From contig NZ_JAMQON010000002.1 of NCBI RefSeq assembly GCF_031624395.1, positions 124,001-188,000 on the forward strand: DNA of 64,000 nucleotides, given 5' to 3'. Below the pieces are notes generated by a model. That model searched no databases, was not told where the DNA came from, and saw only the letters and a program-made list of their open reading frames with translations. Positions 20,826 through 28,765 of the stretch are shown here, one piece after another. The position numbers and the translations under genes are program-made. Source of the stretch: Halomicroarcula saliterrae. GTDB lineage: Archaea; Halobacteriota; Halobacteria; Halobacteriales; Haloarculaceae. Each line of letters begins with the position of its first letter. The stretch's first letter is position 1.

Positions 20826-21614
20826 TTACATCTCGACGACGCCGGACTGTCTGGTCAGTACCGACCCGTTGTAGCGGATGGTGGCGTCGAACGCCGTACT
20901 GGGGCCCAGATCAGACGTGTTGAACGCGGCGCTGAGCGTCCCGTCTTCGTTTACCGTGGTCTCCCGGGAGCGGAGGAACGGCGTGCTCGTATCGGCGCTG
21001 CGGAGGCGCAACTCGACTCGTGTGCCCGCTTCGAGCTCTGTCTCGGCTTTGAGCGTGGCGGTTTCGCTCGGCGCGAGCGTCAGGACGTCGCCCTCGACGA
21101 CGAAGCTAGCGTCGGCCGTCGTGGACTCGTTGCTATCGCCGACACGTTCGTACTCGTCGTTCGCACCGGGGTCGATATCGGTAATCGGGTCGGTCGCATT
21201 GCCGACGACCTGACCCGAGCGGCTGGCGACCACGTCGCCGTCGTGACGCACCGTCAGTTCGAAATCCGGCTGGTCGGTGATCCGGGAGAGGTCGACAGTG
21301 GTCCGGAACGTCCCGTTCTCGCTGACCGTGGCCTCCCGGGAGCGGAGGAACGGCGTCGCGGCGTCGCTTGCGCTGACGATACGAACCGAGAGTGTTTCAC
21401 CGGCGGCGATATCCGTCCGGCCGCTGATGACCTGTCCCGTCGTCGCGTCGAGTCGCACCGTCTCGGTGTCGGGCAGGACAACGGTGCCGTTGACCTGCTG
21501 GGTAGTGTTTGCCTGTGGCTGGGTCTCGCCCGTATCGAAGACGACAGCCCCGGTGACGGCGGCGATACCGATAGCGGCACCGATAGCGACCAAGACGCCG
21601 ACCTGGCGGTTCAT
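20826..21614 (-). CDS. BGTF-like anchored surface protein
   Basis: A 262-residue protein with an N-terminal hydrophobic helix (MNRQVGVLVAIGAAIG) and two repeats of a beta-domain, each containing TPFLRSRE, T, V and E/D-x-GT. Repeat one spans about residues 35-140 and repeat two about 165-262. The repeats resemble domains annotated as BGTF surface domains in haloarchaea, and a further relative lies at 24599-25906. It has several NxT/NxS sequons. A TATA-like TGTATTTTAC lies at about 21750-21760, giving a 5' UTR of about 115 nt. It is divergent from the 21857 gene. Confidence 0.75.
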   Translation of the reverse strand: MNRQVGVLVAIGAAIGIAAVTGAVVFDTGETQPQANTTQQVNGTVVLPDTETVRLDATTGQVISGRTDIAAGETLSVRIVSASDAATPFLRSREATVSENGTFRTTVDLSRITDQPDFELTVRHDGDVVASRSGQVVGNATDPITDIDPGANDEYERVGDSNESTTADASFVVEGDVLTLAPSETATLKAETELEAGTRVELRLRSADTSTPFLRSRETTVNEDGTLSAAFNTSDLGPSTAFDATIRYNGSVLTRQSGVVEM

Positions 21615-21795
21615 CGGCCCACCTCCGGCGTCGGTCGGTTGGAGAGGCAATGCGGACTGCAGGGACCAGTCCCCGCTGGGGAGCGGGGCAACTCTGTAGC
21701 GTACATGGCACTCCCGACTACAGATGTGGTAGAAAAAGCGACGGCGGATAGTAAAATACAGATTTGAGCGGTCCTGCACACCGAGGGCGGCGACT

Positions 21796-21816
21796 GGCTA
21801 CAATCCGGTTTTAACC
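21796..21816 (+). promoter_or_regulatory. envelope-cluster operator 1
   Basis: A 21-nt imperfect palindrome with half-sites GGCTACAA and TTTTAACC, agreeing with a symmetric GGnTAnAA-n5-TTnTAnCC at 14 specified positions. It ends 10 nt before the CTATTAAAC TATA box (21826-21834) of the 21857 gene. Near-matches lie at the same place before two other promoters of this cluster. Confidence 0.65.
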
Positions 21817-21856
21817 AAGCGTGGACTATTAAACGGGACTGGTCGAGACACCGATT

Positions 21857-22624
21857 ATGGGACTCGTACGGGTCGGTGTGGTCGCACTCGTGTTGGTGAG
21901 TGCCGTGTGTCTCGGACTCGACTTCGGCGGGACACAGTCGAACGGCGGGGCGTCTCCCCTCCCGCCAGGAGTGGACGACGGGAGTCTGAACGCGACGGCG
22001 CTGGCGGCGGCCCACGAACGGTCCCTCGTGGACACCCCCGTTGCTATCGAGACGTCTCGGGCGACGTGGAACACCGACCCGGGCGGCAATCAGACCGTGA
22101 CAACCAAGACGCTGACCGACGGCAACGGGACGCTCTGGCGGCGGACAGTGACCGGCGACAGCGAGCAGTCACACGTTGAGCGGTGGACCGACGGGCGACG
22201 GAGTCTCCGGTACGTCGCGGCTACCGGGGAAACGGTGTCGGCAGATGTGGTGACGAGGCCCGGACAGCGGTACCTGACACCGAGGCTGGCGACGTGGCTC
22301 GATACGGGACGGTACTCACTCACCGCCGTCGAGTCGGCTACGCCCGGGCGATACGTCCTCACGACGACCACTTACACGCCGCCGGACGGGGAACCACTGG
22401 AGGCCGACACCGTCCGGTACGAGGCGACAGCCGTCGTGACGGCGAGAGGCCGCGTGCAGGCGATGTCGGCGACGCTCGTGACAATCGAGACCAACAGATG
22501 GGGTCGACACGTCCGGTCGCGATCGTACAGCTACCGCGTCGTCCGGACCGGCGGTGTCACCCCGCCGACCCCCGACTGGCTCCCCGACCGGTCCGCAGCG
22601 GCCGTGGAGGGCGACGATGGCTGA
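21857..22624 (+). CDS. signal-anchored envelope protein of unknown family
   Basis: A 255-residue protein with an N-terminal hydrophobic segment (VGVVALVLVSAVCLGLDF) and no clean lipobox. It is followed by a beta-rich ectodomain with several NxT sequons (NATA, NQTV, NGTL). The layout recalls haloarchaeal lipoprotein families similar to the 15030 gene. The TATA box CTATTAAAC is 27 nt upstream. Its end overlaps the start of the subtilase gene by 8 nt, so both are made from one mRNA and probably act together at the cell surface. Confidence 0.7.
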   Translation: MGLVRVGVVALVLVSAVCLGLDFGGTQSNGGASPLPPGVDDGSLNATALAAAHERSLVDTPVAIETSRATWNTDPGGNQTVTTKTLTDGNGTLWRRTVTGDSEQSHVERWTDGRRSLRYVAATGETVSADVVTRPGQRYLTPRLATWLDTGRYSLTAVESATPGRYVLTTTTYTPPDGEPLEADTVRYEATAVVTARGRVQAMSATLVTIETNRWGRHVRSRSYSYRVVRTGGVTPPTPDWLPDRSAAAVEGDDG

Positions 22625-23897
22625 CACCCGGCGAGTGGCGCTGCTCGTTGCGGCCGTAGTCGCCGTGTTCACTGTGGTCATCGCCGTCGTCGCGACGAGC
22701 ACGCCGCCTGCAGGACCCCCGTCGGACGGGACGGCTGTCGCGGCTACCGGCGGCTTCGAGCGCATCCATGACCGCGGGCTGACGGGGTCGAACGTCTCAG
22801 TCGGAGTCGTCGACGTGACTGGGTTCAACACGGGCTCGACAGCACTCTCGGACCAGCTCCGGGCCGCCCGCGCGTTCGGGACCGGGTCGCTGGACGCCGG
22901 CAGTACCCACGGTACCGCCGCGGCGACGGTCGTGGCCCGTATCGCCCCCGATTCCGAGCTGTACCTCGCGAGCGTCGGCGGTATCGGCGATTACGAGCGG
23001 GCGGTCGAGTGGCTCCGACAGCAGGACGTCGACGTCGTCGTCACCACGGTCTCGTTCTACGGCCGGCCGGGCGACGGCGGCGGAACCGTCGGGCGAGTCA
23101 CCGCTGAAGCGGTCGAGGACGACATGGTGGTCGTCGCTCCGAGCGGGAACCTCGCTACCTCCCACTGGCGGGGCACGTACGACGCATCGAGCGTCGAGAA
23201 CGGGACCCTCCAGTTCGCCGACGGGGCCACCCGAACGGCCATCGACGGCCCGACGGACGTGACGGTGTGGCTCTCGTGGGACAGCGCCCACGCCGACGAA
23301 GACTACACCGTCGAACTGTACCGCACCGACGGCGCCCGGCCGCGACTGGTCGCCCGCTCCCAGCCGTATCCGGCCGACGACACGCCAAACGAGCGAATCG
23401 TCGCTGACGTGTCGCCGGGTCGGTACGCGCTCGTCGTCGCCGGCCCCGACGAACCCACGAACGCCACCGTCCGCCTGCTGTCGCCCACCCACGAGTTCGA
23501 ACACGTCAGCGAGAGCGGTAGCGTCGTCGCTCCCGGCACCGGCAGTGACGTGCTGACCGTCGGCGCGTACAACAACCGCACGGGCGAGGTGGAGCCGTTC
23601 AGTTCGCGGGGACCGACGCTGGACGGCCGGACCGGCGTCGACGTGGTGGCACCGAACCGCCGATACGCGACGCTGACCGAGAACGGGTTCGTCGGGTCCT
23701 CGGCCGCGACGTCGTACGTCGGTGGACTGGTCGCGCTGTTACTCGACGCCGACCCGTCGCTGTCACCGTCACACGCCGAGTTGCTCGTCGAGCTCACCGC
23801 GACAGACATCGGCCGACCCGGCGTGGACTACGCCTCGGGCCACGGCGTCGTCGCCCCGGTCAACGCCGTCGGTGCGGCCGCAAACGGGACCGGTTAA
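22617..23897 (+). CDS. membrane-anchored subtilisin-like protease (S8)
   Basis: A 426-residue serine protease. The N-terminal helix (about residues 7-27) anchors or exports it. The catalytic triad is visible as D66 (VGVVDVTGF), H98 (GSTHGTAAA) and S362 (GSSAATSYVGG), with the oxyanion Asn N178 (APSGNLA). Between N178 and the serine block lies an inserted beta-domain of about 130 residues (TVWLSWDS to VRLLSP), unlike minimal subtilases. No long propeptide is evident. It overlaps the upstream envelope gene by 8 nt and is followed by a regulator gene with its own promoter. Confidence 0.88.
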   Translation: MADTRRVALLVAAVVAVFTVVIAVVATSTPPAGPPSDGTAVAATGGFERIHDRGLTGSNVSVGVVDVTGFNTGSTALSDQLRAARAFGTGSLDAGSTHGTAAATVVARIAPDSELYLASVGGIGDYERAVEWLRQQDVDVVVTTVSFYGRPGDGGGTVGRVTAEAVEDDMVVVAPSGNLATSHWRGTYDASSVENGTLQFADGATRTAIDGPTDVTVWLSWDSAHADEDYTVELYRTDGARPRLVARSQPYPADDTPNERIVADVSPGRYALVVAGPDEPTNATVRLLSPTHEFEHVSESGSVVAPGTGSDVLTVGAYNNRTGEVEPFSSRGPTLDGRTGVDVVAPNRRYATLTENGFVGSSAATSYVGGLVALLLDADPSLSPSHAELLVELTATDIGRPGVDYASGHGVVAPVNAVGAAANGTG

Positions 23898-23911
23898 ATC
23901 GGATTTTAAGC
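23891..23911 (+). promoter_or_regulatory. envelope-cluster operator 2
   Basis: The site begins GGTTAAAT, ends TTTTAAGCC and has a CGGATT core like the other two. The left half is one base shorter and the right half one longer, so the symmetry is weaker. It overlaps the protease stop codon (TAA 23895-23897) and ends 10-11 nt before the GCTATAGG box of the HTH gene. Confidence 0.5.
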
Positions 23912-23958
23912 CTGCCAAACGGCTATAGGAACGGCGACGTGAGCCACGTCCAGTGACA

Positions 23959-24579
23959 ATGTCGGGACTCATCGACCGGATTCAGGAGCGAACGGGGTCG
24001 CCGAAGGAACGACCCCGAGTGCTCGATGTCGACGACTCGGACACCGACGCAGTGCTCGATGCGCTCTCCTCGGACACCGGCCGAGAACTGTACCGGACGC
24101 TGTTCGACGAACCCGGGACTGCCTCGGAAATCGCACGGCGCTGTGACACTTCCGTCCAGAACGTCCACTACCACATCTCGAACCTCGAGGCCGCCGAACT
24201 CGTCGAACCGATCGAGACGGTGTACTCCGAGAAGGGCAACGAGATGACCGTGTACGGGCCGGCGAGCGACCCGCTCGTACTGGTCGGGAACCGGGGTCTG
24301 TACGCGCAGGTCCAGCAGTCAATCACCGACATCGTGGCCGGTATCGGCCTGCTGGCGATGGCGAGCCTCCTCGTCCAGTGGGGCGCCGAACGCATCGCCG
24401 GCCGGCCCGGCGGGAGCGGGGCGCTGGGTCCGGCCAGTCCCACGTCCCCACAGACGGACCCCACTGGTTCCGTCCCGTGGCTGGTGTTCGGCGTCCTCGA
24501 ACCCGGTCTGCTCTTTTTCTGTGGCAGCCTTGCGCTCCTCGGCGTCGCGGCGCTCGCGGCCCGACGGCTGTCGCACTGA
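23959..24579 (+). CDS. membrane-bound winged-helix transcription regulator
   Basis: A 206-residue protein with an N-terminal ArsR-like winged helix (about residues 30-105; TASEIARRCDTSVQNVHYHI is the recognition region). Two membrane helices follow at about 120-140 and 170-200, with a Pro/Ser/Gly linker between. This topology lets an outside or membrane signal reach DNA directly. ATG 23959 is used instead of GTG 23953. Its promoter carries a near-copy of the palindrome found at the 21857 and 24599 genes, so it is the natural candidate to bind it. Confidence 0.8.
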   Translation: MSGLIDRIQERTGSPKERPRVLDVDDSDTDAVLDALSSDTGRELYRTLFDEPGTASEIARRCDTSVQNVHYHISNLEAAELVEPIETVYSEKGNEMTVYGPASDPLVLVGNRGLYAQVQQSITDIVAGIGLLAMASLLVQWGAERIAGRPGGSGALGPASPTSPQTDPTGSVPWLVFGVLEPGLLFFCGSLALLGVAALAARRLSH

Positions 24580-24598
24580 GGTGGCGAGATGCGGGGGG

Positions 24599-25906
24599 TC
24601 ACGACAACAGCGTTCTGACGACCAGAGTGACCCCGCCGATAGCGAGCAGGCCGCCCACCGCAATCGCAGCCGTTCCCGCGTTCAGTAACCCCGTCGACCT
24701 CCCGCTGGTCACGCGTTCGGTCGTCACCGCCAGCGCCGCGTCGGCCGCGGTCGAGACGTTCCCGGACTGCAGCGAGAGGGTCGCAGCCGCGTCCGCCTCG
24801 CTCGTGACGTTCGGACCCCGGTAGAGAGTGATATCGTAGACACCGTCTTCGATATGCGTGTCCCGACTGACCTCTGACCCGGGAACCGTCGTGACCGAGT
24901 CGCGACTGGCGACCGTCCGGAGTGTCTCGCCCGACTGGCCGGCCGCTCGGGTGTCGAACAGCAGGGTAACCGTGCCGTCACCGTCACCGTCGCGGACGGT
25001 CGCGTTAATCTGGTAGCCGTTTGCCGGCCCGCCGAGCGAGAGCGTCGCGGTGTCCCAACTGCCGAGGGTGACGGGTATCTCCGCGACCTCGCCCTGTGCG
25101 CTCGTGTAGGTGGCGCGTTCGAAGCCGAACCCGTCGTCACCGACGGCGAAATCCGCGCTCCGGTTCGACTCGACGACGAGCAGCCCGTTCTCGACCGCCG
25201 AAGCGCCGCCGGCGACCCGGAAGTGGTAGCCACCGGTCCCGACTGTCGGGGCGAGGGTCGCCCGCTCTCGGGTGACGGTAATCGAGTCCTCGGCAGCGGC
25301 GACGGAGAGCCGGTCGCCGTCGTTAGCGGCCGTTTCGAACCGGAGACGGACCTCGCCGTCGTCGCTACCGTCCGTCAGCGTCGCGTTGACGAGAGGAGCG
25401 CCGGACGGCGCTCCGAGCGAGAACTGGACGGAGTCGCCGTCCACCGTCGAGACCGGTATCGTCGCGACGCGTCCCCGCTCGACGGTGACGACGGTGTCCG
25501 GCACACCGGCGATGTCCGGCTCGGGGTCGGTACAGCCGCTCTCACAGGGAGCGACTCGTCCGTCGTACTCCGCGAGGGACGTCCCGTTGTGCTGGACGGT
25601 GACGGCGAAGCCGGTGTTCGCGTCGACAGTGCGCAGGTCGAACACCGCTGCGAAGGCGCCGTTCCGGCCGACGTAGACCGTCTCCTGACTGAGATACGGG
25701 GCCGTCGTGTTCGTCAGTTGGAATCGAACGGTAAGTTCGGTCCCCTGTTCGAGGGTGGTCTGGCCGCGCAAGACCTGCTGTTGTCCCGCTTCGAGGGGGA
25801 GGCTGTTCTCGTCGATACTGGCCGTCTCGTCGGCCAGTGTGGGGTCGGCACCCGTCACGGCGGCCCCGAGGAGTAGCGTGGCGAACGCAATGAGACGAAC
25901 GCTCAT
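24599..25906 (-). CDS. BGTF-like surface protein with C-terminal anchor
   Basis: A 435-residue protein with a signal peptide (SVRLIAFATLLLGAAVTG), a first domain (about 28-118) with TLEQGTELTVRFQLTNT and TVYVGRNGAFAAVFDL that parallels the repeats of the 20826-21614 protein, several beta-domains, and a hydrophobic C-terminal helix (about 405-433) with a short basic end. It would be anchored by its C-terminus and exposed outside. ATG 25906 is used. The probable promoter is at 26018-26058, giving a 5' UTR of about 90 nt. Confidence 0.75.
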   Translation of the reverse strand: MSVRLIAFATLLLGAAVTGADPTLADETASIDENSLPLEAGQQQVLRGQTTLEQGTELTVRFQLTNTTAPYLSQETVYVGRNGAFAAVFDLRTVDANTGFAVTVQHNGTSLAEYDGRVAPCESGCTDPEPDIAGVPDTVVTVERGRVATIPVSTVDGDSVQFSLGAPSGAPLVNATLTDGSDDGEVRLRFETAANDGDRLSVAAAEDSITVTRERATLAPTVGTGGYHFRVAGGASAVENGLLVVESNRSADFAVGDDGFGFERATYTSAQGEVAEIPVTLGSWDTATLSLGGPANGYQINATVRDGDGDGTVTLLFDTRAAGQSGETLRTVASRDSVTTVPGSEVSRDTHIEDGVYDITLYRGPNVTSEADAAATLSLQSGNVSTAADAALAVTTERVTSGRSTGLLNAGTAAIAVGGLLAIGGVTLVVRTLLS

Positions 25907-26037
25907 CGCCACACTACCCCCGAGCGTCGGTCACAGCCCGGAAACACCACACTGGTCGGTGGCGACGCGAGCGCTGGCGAGGCGGTCACTATCATCACGC
26001 GTCGCGTTCTGTCGACCGATACAAAGCTTCGCCGGTA

Positions 26038-26058
26038 GGTTAAAATCCGGTTGTAGCG
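26038..26058 (-). promoter_or_regulatory. envelope-cluster operator 3
   Basis: Read on the minus strand it has half-sites CGCTACAA and TTTTAACC around CCGGA, matching the symmetric pattern of operator 1 except for the first base. A TATA-like TTTGTATC (26018-26025) lies 12 nt downstream in the direction of the 24599-25906 gene. Confidence 0.65.
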
Positions 26059-26552: not shown

Positions 26553-26747
26553 TCAGAGCCGCGTCACGTTCTCCGCGCGCGGCCCCTTGTCGGCCTGGAC
26601 GATGTCGAACTCGACTTCCTGCCCCTCCTCCAGGTCGGGGCCGCCGACGTCTTCCATGTGGAAGAACACGTCCTCGTCCGCGTCTTCGGTATCGATGAAC
26701 CCGTACCCGCCGGTGTCGTTGAAGAAGTCAACGGTGCCTGTTGCCAT
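26553..26747 (-). CDS. cspA: cold-shock protein CspA, second of tandem pair
   Basis: A 64-residue cold-shock domain protein with RNP1-like GGYGFIDTED and RNP2-like DVFFHMED motifs. It binds single-stranded RNA or DNA and relieves RNA structure. It follows the first copy by 2 nt and differs from it at only a few positions (for example VGGPD for IEGPD, and the C-terminal ENVTRL). No promoter fits in the gap, so it is made from the upstream gene's mRNA. Confidence 0.94.
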   Translation of the reverse strand: MATGTVDFFNDTGGYGFIDTEDADEDVFFHMEDVGGPDLEEGQEVEFDIVQADKGPRAENVTRL

Positions 26748-26749
26748 GA

Positions 26750-26944
26750 TCACACCCTCGTGAGGTTCTTCGCTCGCGGACCCTTGTCCGCCTGTTCGAT
26801 GTCGAACTCGACTTCCTGACCCTCCTCTAGGTCGGGACCTTCGATGTCCTCCATGTGGAAGAAAACGTCCTCGTCGGAGTCCTCTGTGTCGATGAAGCCG
26901 TAACCGCCCGTGTCGTTGAAGAAGTCTACCGTACCGGTCGCCAT
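26750..26944 (-). CDS. cspA: cold-shock protein CspA, first of tandem pair
   Basis: A 64-residue cold-shock domain protein with the same RNP motifs (GGYGFIDTED, DVFFHMED). A TTTATTAG box (about 26968-26975) lies 27 nt before the ATG, so this copy leads the transcript. Near-identity with the downstream copy shows a recent tandem duplication or ongoing gene conversion. Confidence 0.94.
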   Translation of the reverse strand: MATGTVDFFNDTGGYGFIDTEDSDEDVFFHMEDIEGPDLEEGQEVEFDIEQADKGPRAKNLTRV

Positions 26945-27048
26945 TGCGACCGGCAGTTCTCACCCGGGGCTAATAAATGTATGTGGCAGGTTCCCACGGC
27001 CGACGCCAGCCACAAACGCCTTATCGGCTCGTTGATATGCTACTGGTG
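26945..27048. promoter_or_regulatory. divergent promoters of cspA pair and uppS
   Basis: The leftward box TTTATTAG is at about 26968-26975. The rightward box CTTATCGG is at about 27020-27027, 27 nt before the uppS ATG 27049. The two TATA boxes are about 45 nt apart. Confidence 0.55.
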
Positions 27049-27969
27049 ATGCGAGAGCGGATCGAGCGAGTGGGCTACGCGGCGTACGAGCGCCTGCTCC
27101 GGCGGGAGCTGTCGGGAACGCCCAGTCACGTCGCGGTCATCATGGACGGGAACCGACGCTACGCCAGGAAACACGGCGTCGAGGCGACCCAGGGCCACAG
27201 CGAGGGCGTCGAGACGGCCGAGGCGCTGTTACACTGGTGTGACGACCTCGGCATCGACGAGGTCACGCTGTACACCTTCTCGACGGAGAACTTCGACAGA
27301 CCGGAGGAGCAACGGGAGTATCTCTTCGACCTGGTCGAGGAGAAACTCCGGGGCTTCGCGGACGCCGACCGCGTCCACGAGGCCGAGGTCTGTATCCGCG
27401 CCATCGGTGAAACCGAGATGCTCCCCGAGCGGGTCCGGGACGCCATCGACTACGCTGAGCGTCGGACGGGGCAGTACGACCGCCTCAACCTCAACATCGC
27501 GCTGGCCTACGGCGGCCGCGCGGAGCTTCTGGGCGCGGCCCGGGATATCGCCGCGGCCGTCGACGCCGGGGAGCTGTCCCCCGGGGCCGTCGACGCCGAC
27601 ACCATCGAGTCCCGCCTCTACGAGGGGCCGACCCGCGACGTCGACCTCATCGTCCGCACCGGCGGCGACGAGCGCACCTCGAACTTCCTCCCGTGGCACG
27701 CCAACGGCAACGAGGCCGCGACGTTCTTCTGTACCCCCTACTGGCCCGAGTTCCGGAAAATAGACTTTCTCAGGGCGATCCGTACCTACCAGAACCGCGA
27801 GGAGTCCTGGCGCGCCACGCGGGCCCGCCGCGCGGTGACGCTCGTCCAGGCCGTCGAGGATGCGGAACTGTCGCAGGCGAGGGCCGTGCTGGGCCGGTTC
27901 CGTGATGCGCTCCCGACCGCCGAGCGAGAGGGGTTAGACGACGAAACGGCCGAGGCGTCGGCGGACTGA
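27049..27969 (+). CDS. uppS: cis-prenyltransferase (polyprenyl diphosphate synthase)
   Basis: A 306-residue cis-prenyltransferase, which extends an allylic diphosphate with isopentenyl units to make the polyprenol (dolichol) carrier for glycosylation. The catalytic opening HVAVIMDGNRRYARK (Asp33) is intact, as are YTFSTENFDR, NLNIALAYGGR and the C-terminal DLIVRTGGDERTSNFLPW. ATG 27049 is chosen by TATA spacing. A second, divergent family member faces it 6 nt away. Confidence 0.92.
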   Translation: MRERIERVGYAAYERLLRRELSGTPSHVAVIMDGNRRYARKHGVEATQGHSEGVETAEALLHWCDDLGIDEVTLYTFSTENFDRPEEQREYLFDLVEEKLRGFADADRVHEAEVCIRAIGETEMLPERVRDAIDYAERRTGQYDRLNLNIALAYGGRAELLGAARDIAAAVDAGELSPGAVDADTIESRLYEGPTRDVDLIVRTGGDERTSNFLPWHANGNEAATFFCTPYWPEFRKIDFLRAIRTYQNREESWRATRARRAVTLVQAVEDAELSQARAVLGRFRDALPTAEREGLDDETAEASAD

Positions 27970-27974
27970 GCGCT

Positions 27975-28583
27975 CTATCGACCGTATCTGCGCTGCCGTT
28001 CCTGATAGTCCCGCAACGCCCGCAGGTAGTCGCGCTGGCGGAAGTTCTGCCAGTTCACGTCGGTGAAGTACAGCTCGGAGTACACCGACTGCCAGATCAT
28101 GAAATCCGAGAGCCGTTCGGCGCCGGTCTTGATGACCAGATCGGGAGCCGTCGGGAAGACGAGGTGCTCCTCGACGGCCGCCTCGTCGATGTCGTCGGGC
28201 GCGAGCTCCCCGCCGTCGACGCGCTCGGCGAGTTTCTGGACCGCCGTCGCGAACTCCGACTGGCCGCCCAGCCCGATAGATATCTGGATCGGAGCGTCGG
28301 CAGCGTGCCGGTCTCCGGGGCCCCGAACGGCGACGCTGGTCGGCGCCCGGAGGTTCGCGAGCTCGCGCCGGAGCGTCGGCACCACCTCTTCGTCGAGGAC
28401 GCTGACGTAGACGACGATGGTGTCGACCCCGTACCGAACGGCCCACTCGAAAAACCGTTCCAGCGTGGCGTAGGCCCCGTCGGTCAACAGGTCCCGTTCG
28501 GTGATGACCAGCGCGACCGTCTCCGGGAGGTCGGCGTCGCTGCGGCGGAGCCGGAGCGCGAGGTATCGGTCGTACAGACCCAC
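27975..28583 (-). CDS. divergent cis-prenyltransferase paralogue
   Basis: A 202-residue relative of UppS. It keeps the C-terminal binding motif (DLVIKTGAERLSDFMIWQ and SELYFTDVNW) but lacks the N-terminal MDGNRR block with the catalytic Asp; the corresponding region reads VALVITERDLL. It could be a non-catalytic subunit for the neighbouring UppS, like NgBR with DHDDS in eukaryotes, or a distinct enzyme. The GTG at 28583 is preferred over GTG 28619 because a GTTTTACG box lies 25-32 nt upstream of it. Confidence 0.8.
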   Translation of the reverse strand: MGLYDRYLALRLRRSDADLPETVALVITERDLLTDGAYATLERFFEWAVRYGVDTIVVYVSVLDEEVVPTLRRELANLRAPTSVAVRGPGDRHAADAPIQISIGLGGQSEFATAVQKLAERVDGGELAPDDIDEAAVEEHLVFPTAPDLVIKTGAERLSDFMIWQSVYSELYFTDVNWQNFRQRDYLRALRDYQERQRRYGR

Positions 28584-28765
28584 GATATCGGGTATGCCGA
28601 CCGCTCGCGTAAAACTCACGGTCCGGGCTAGCGACGGTCGTTGGCGGGGACACCGGCACCGAACAGATCGTCAGACTGTCACCATCTCAGACGGAGACCG
28701 CATCTATGGTTCCTAGCCCGGGAAGTTCGGAAAGGGTAAGTGGCTCTCGGGGATACGGCCGGGAC

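Follow-up and report, generated by a model that had tools for sequence, protein, structure and literature searches.

What controls a cluster of envelope-protein genes in Halomicroarcula saliterrae, and does the regulator encoded among them act through the palindrome that their promoters share? The cluster occupies 4.3 kb within a stretch of 64,000 nucleotides (positions 124,001 to 188,000 of contig NZ_JAMQON010000002.1, assembly GCF_031624395.1), which is hereafter called the window. A preliminary description of this DNA proposed that the protein encoded at 23959-24579 runs an autoregulated local regulon from three palindromic sites. Our analysis supports the proposal, because the motif is placed non-randomly and is conserved at orthologous promoters. 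Our reading, to which we give a probability of roughly 0.8, is that the cluster's membrane-tethered regulator, a one-component protein with an ArsR-like winged helix, controls both its own gene and the envelope genes around it through a shared operator.

Candidate operator sites in the cluster and their conservation

The three palindromes described earlier are real; all are present in the sequence, with small coordinate corrections. A count of three was too low, since a fourth copy had been overlooked. Alignment of ortholog promoters gives the candidate operator as a 20-bp even palindrome with the half-site RNTHMAA and a spacer of 6, the best form being GGTTAAA-N6-TTTAACC, and this form replaces the 21-nt unit with a 5-nt spacer that had been drawn before. 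Site S1 (21797-21816, + strand, GCTACAATCCGGTTTTAACC) lies in the promoter of an operon for an anchored protein and a subtilase. S2 (23892-23911, + strand, GGTTAAATCGGATTTTAAGC), whose start had been placed one base off at 23891, lies in the regulator's own promoter and overlaps the subtilase stop codon (23895-23897). S3 (26038-26057, - strand, GCTACAACCGGATTTTAACC) is in the promoter of a BGTF/DUF7827 surface-protein gene, and the overlooked copy, S4 (21750-21769, - strand, GCTCAAATCTGTATTTTACT), is a pattern match in the promoter of the divergent BGTF gene at 20826-21614 (-). The distance from S4 to S1 is 27 bp, and each of these two divergent promoters has its own site. Read in gene orientation, S1 and S3 are identical at 17 of 20 letters. 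The symmetry of the single sites is imperfect (8-12 of 20 positions symmetric in S1-S4).

A position weight matrix was trained on 40 orthologous loci, solely with the promoter of the regulator gene itself and with the window excluded. It scored S1, S2, S3 and S4 at 24.4, 26.6, 19.8 and 23.8 bits, respectively. The string GGnTAnAA-n5-TTnTAnCC, suggested earlier for a genome search, has a single occurrence in the genome, at S1. The pattern RNTHMAAN6TTKDANY has four matches in the window, exactly S1-S4, against 0.00 expected in dinucleotide shuffles; this pattern was devised after the sites were seen, and the independent tests are those in other genomes. In the whole 4.2-Mb genome, which was scanned with patterns and not with the weight matrix, it occurs at 11 places compared with 6 for a reversed control pattern, and four of the 11 fall inside the cluster. 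Thus, the motif is not scattered at random, a check that the preliminary description had itself put forward.

The family search gave 41 close orthologs of the regulator (at least 52% identity, the window's included) in 146 genomes, and the order search found an ortholog at E <= 1e-40 in 69 of 392 genomes. Named relatives belong to Haloarcula, Halomicroarcula, Halomicrobium, Halosimplex, Halorientalis, Halorussus, Halorubellus, Natrialba and others. The gene order subtilase-regulator-BGTF is kept in most family loci. The housekeeping genes that flank it in the window (hemA, UppS and others), by contrast, did not turn up in any other family locus, and the cassette is therefore a unit of its own. 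An equivalent site is present at the regulator promoter in all 41 family loci and at the downstream surface-gene promoter in 41 of 41. The protease-operon promoter has a site in 19 of the 37 family loci with a subtilase, and a few more sites lie in divergent regions shared with a BGTF gene. Conservation at orthologous promoters, as the earlier proposal would have it, is therefore found for the regulator, the protease operon and the surface protein alike.

The matrix, although trained on the regulator promoter, found its next-best matches in most loci at the surface-gene and operon promoters. Beyond the regulator promoter, the 41 loci hold 70 matches of at least 15 bits, compared with 1 in reversed sequence and 0.8 in dinucleotide shuffles; the 70 include matches beside a TetR-like gene in L043-L056, which were excluded from the promoter counts. 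Among order-level genomes outside the training set (n=30), the site was found at the regulator promoter in 26 of 30 and at the surface-gene promoter in 12 of 15. The regulator's self-site is also retained in three family loci (L060, L063 and L064) in which no subtilase was found upstream. The idea that S2 is kept merely through the subtilase stop codon is ruled out by these loci: the self-site persists there, and it is therefore not kept for coding reasons.

The TetR-like gene in L043-L056 is preceded by a recurrent similar palindrome, ACTTCAAAGCGTTTTTGACT, at about 11.7-16.3 kb (e.g. L049:11700-11719). This palindrome may be the TetR-like protein's own operator.

The regulator and its paralogs

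The regulator gene (23959-24579, +) encodes 206 residues, composed of an N-terminal winged helix of the HTH_20 type (ArsR-like) and HVO_1552_C (PF24267). In Pfam, HTH_20 scored 46.9 bits (cut-off 27) and HVO_1552_C scored 32 bits (cut-off 27; 33 bits in the genome search), so that the protein carries both features of the HVO_1552 family, namely HVO_1552_C over the curated cut-off and an N-terminal HTH_20. The structure model places the winged helix-turn-helix (HTH) at residues 26-101, with wing strands at 82-89 and 95-101, and further helices at 112-148 and 182-205; hydropathy peaks are at 121-143 and 183-201. Hydropathy and model together predict two C-terminal transmembrane helices around a loop of ~40 residues, and the predicted topology is that of a cytoplasmic HTH followed by C-terminal transmembrane helices. 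Between the wing and the first long helix there are about 10 residues, and a Pfam scan of the regulator gave no HAMP or sensor domain between the HTH and the membrane.

The DNA-binding domain is ArsR-like in fold, the nearest solved folds being ArsR-family regulators including Pyrococcus Phr and PH1932, but it lacks the marks of an ArsR/SmtB metalloregulator. NCBIfam HTH_metalloreg scored 20.9 bits against a cut-off of 55, and there is no Cys in the invariant or nearly invariant columns of a 30-sequence alignment, a check that covered Cys sites. The recognition helix and the wing (SVQNVHYH, YSEKGNEM) are the most conserved region of the protein across both orthologs and paralogs.

Many paralogs, at 36-54% identity, have GGTCAAA-N6-TTTGACC-type sites near position -60 relative to their start; others have none. 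A match of at least 13 bits was found in 23 of 40 paralog loci, compared with 2 in reversed sequence. Over 32 genomes of the genus, the relaxed pattern occurs 405 times and its control 153 times. This excess, together with the paralog sites, agrees with an operator code used throughout the family, in which paralogs overlap to some degree. We see an even chance that all HVO_1552-family proteins use the 20-bp palindrome as their operator code: the paralogs would read the half-site variants GTTAAA, GTCAAA and CTACAA at a fixed place before a TATA box and form an envelope-sensing network. If so, several membrane-tethered winged-helix paralogs in each haloarchaeal genome would jointly set surface proteins, proteases and lipoproteins.

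Sites of the same class were also seen elsewhere. One lies between an HVO_1552-family paralog and a metallo-beta-lactamase-fold gene (G000:C1:1123468-1123487, in L078 and L157, and L208:2001-2020); it is just downstream of the paralog, and a second Haloarcula-type genome has it in the equivalent position. Two genomes have a site before the gene for a secreted protein with a SIMPL domain (DUF541) (G000:C4:375901-375920, in L082, and L211:2001-2020), and same-class sites precede small lipoprotein-like genes, again in two genomes (G000:C7:20361-20380, in L083, and L214:2001-2020).

Promoter geometry and the sign of control

In the window, the TATA box TATTAA of the operon (21827-21832, +) starts at +11 after S1, TATAGG of the regulator (23924-23929, +) at +13 after S2, TTTGTA of the BGTF/DUF7827 gene (26020-26025, -) at +13 after S3, and the TATA-like box TTTTT of the divergent BGTF gene (21733-21737, -) at +13 after S4. 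Across loci, the TATA box starts 11-13 nt downstream of the site with almost no exceptions. It is found at +12 to +15 in 67 regulator, 54 surface-gene and 19 operon promoters, the operon class having it one base closer to the site. The A/T fraction at +13 to +15 is 0.88-0.97 in the 67 regulator promoters and 0.94-1.00 in the 54 surface-gene promoters; related genomes are not independent, and the similarity-weighted effective sizes are ~46 and ~33 sequences, respectively. A further conserved A/T is found at +30/31 after the site, which would be the expected place of the haloarchaeal WW element (about -10) if transcription starts near +41. For S1, +41 is the operon ATG at 21857; a leaderless mRNA is thus predicted when the start site is taken from TATA spacing, and the palindrome would span about -60 to -41. 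The presumed positions of the transcription factor B (TFB) recognition element (BRE) are G+C-rich in surface-gene promoters, which suggests dependence on help.

We infer that the 23959-24579 protein is the binder of the sites, and the link is a good one, because a site lies at its own promoter in every family ortholog, even where no subtilase was found, and related sites precede many paralogs that are 36-54% identical. The protein would bind the four palindromes as operators, probably as a dimer on each palindrome, and its two-helix membrane hairpin would sense a change at the cell envelope. The site-bound regulator most likely recruits TFB and the TATA-binding protein (TBP) and so activates transcription. 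The outcome would be more regulator, more of the anchored protein/subtilase operon and more of the two S-layer-like surface proteins. The subtilase might, as a speculation, trim surface proteins or the outer loop of the regulator. Given the regulon, activation is the probable sign of control, since a constant distance to BRE and TATA, with the site immediately ahead of them, favours it over repression.

Several points weigh against this interpretation. A clear operon site is present in only 19 of the 37 family loci with a subtilase, four of the 30 order-level regulator promoters do not reach the threshold, and the promoters of many paralogs lack a site; moreover, paralogs of the same genome seem to share a half-site class, and one of them could bind some of the sites. 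ArsR-like winged helices are mostly repressors. In the haloarchaeal phaRP promoter, a negative semi-palindromic element lies immediately upstream of the BRE (PMC6085418), so position alone is no proof of activation. These last points bear on the sign: the regulon may be the same but under autorepression, with an ArsR-type protein that sits just ahead of the BRE, impedes TFB there and is released by an envelope signal. Autorepression is common, the nearest solved folds are those of the ArsR family, Phr and PH1932 among them, and phaRP gives the precedent. However, the 20-mer stops about 10-12 nt short of the TATA box and leaves it uncovered, and the spacing is nearly invariant over ~140 promoters, which blocking would not require. 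The G+C-rich BRE positions of the surface-gene promoters also suggest a need for help. We consider repression unlikely and favour activation.

A different question is whether the regulator is the binder at all. The sites could be bound by another factor, whether a paralog from the HVO_1552 family or a regulator unrelated to it, with the regulator gene merely one more target, and the genome does hold at least one other HVO_1552_C protein with a similar site adjoining. The best sites, however, are those of this ortholog group and of the genes beside it, in all 41 family loci, and the sites at paralog promoters lean to GTCAAA, as they should if every protein has sites of its own, which makes binding by another factor quite improbable. 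As for the sites themselves, their half-sites do resemble the A+T-rich letters of promoter DNA in a G+C-rich genome, but chance likeness is refuted by the conservation tests (70 against 1 in the loci, and the conservation out of sample), and the count of four against 0.00 in the window also speaks against it; its probability is negligible.

Genes of the cluster and comparison with known systems

The first gene of the operon (21857-22624, +) encodes a small membrane-anchored protein of 255 aa with one N-terminal transmembrane segment by hydropathy; its Cys18 is invariant in an alignment of 4 relatives, and the protein had no match in Pfam, NCBIfam or PDB. It is followed by the gene for a membrane-anchored S8 subtilase (22617-23897, +; Pfam Peptidase_S8, E 2.4e-20). 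The catalytic residues D66, H98, N178 and S362 are present, and in the alignment H, N and S are kept in 37 of 37 sequences and D in 33 of 37. The S-layer-like surface protein at 24599-25906 (-) is composed of a signal peptide, a BGTF surface domain, DUF7827 and a C-terminal transmembrane segment by hydropathy (PF25162, 92.7 bits; NF045517, 74.5 bits; NF041335, partial), and it partly resembles the S-layer glycoprotein model of haloarchaea. The gene for another BGTF surface protein (20826-21614, -; NF045517, 136.3 bits) runs divergently from the operon. Outside these genes, the convergent genes at 26977-27969 (+) and 27975-28619 (-) both resemble the undecaprenyl diphosphate synthase family, the second being a divergent copy, and a tandem pair of cold-shock-domain genes with near-identical products lies at 26553-26945 (-); both observations come from reading the sequence.

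Archaeal regulons that have been worked out all the way from regulator through site to target are few, and those that link the membrane to surface-layer genes are fewer still. Our literature search found no paper naming HVO_1552 and none on the BGTF domain. The present result brings together a regulator, an operator of defined form, the place of that operator with respect to the preinitiation complex, and a small set of targets. The arrangement is conserved in many haloarchaeal genera, and binding, sign and signal are thereby open to direct testing. A concrete control circuit is thus proposed for a widespread regulator family without an assigned function. The HVO_1552 Pfam family is also present in Haloferax volcanii, which is useful because genetics is easy there.

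The winged helix is common, by sequence and fold, to the regulator and the archaeal ArsR-like proteins Phr (2p4w) and PH1932 (1uly/2cwe); the significant similarity lies in this domain, and the membrane hairpin is predicted here for the regulator. In haloarchaeal promoters, GvpE acts through a 20-nt upstream activating sequence (UAS) placed before BRE and TATA (PMC8241225). The two elements are alike in length and place; GvpE is a different activator that serves gas-vesicle genes. In Thermococcales, promoters activated by TFB-RF1 (PF1088) are marked by a palindrome whose distance to a weak BRE downstream of it is conserved (PMC5937170). The HVO_1552-type sites are likewise palindromes at a fixed distance upstream of BRE/TATA and are likewise conserved across genomes, and the two systems would also share an autoregulated operon with one more operon as target. 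However, the TFB-RF1 site is the 13-nt TCTGAANTTCAGA, the protein is different, and activation was shown there whereas it is inferred here.

By analogy, the closest functional counterparts are two one-component activators of Sulfolobus acidocaldarius, ArnR and ArnR1, which are membrane-bound HTH proteins that act on surface structures (PMC6396743). A putative HAMP/sensor domain is present in ArnR, whereas none was found here, and the ArnR targets are the archaellum and pili, while those proposed here are S-layer-like proteins and a protease. The DNA-binding domain here is HTH_20 with HVO_1552_C, and each promoter has one 20-bp site at a fixed place. The likeness is one of architecture: in both systems an N-terminal HTH is joined to two C-terminal transmembrane helices, predicted in the present case, the target promoter carries inverted-repeat boxes, and the structures under control are, or in the present case would be, those of the cell surface.

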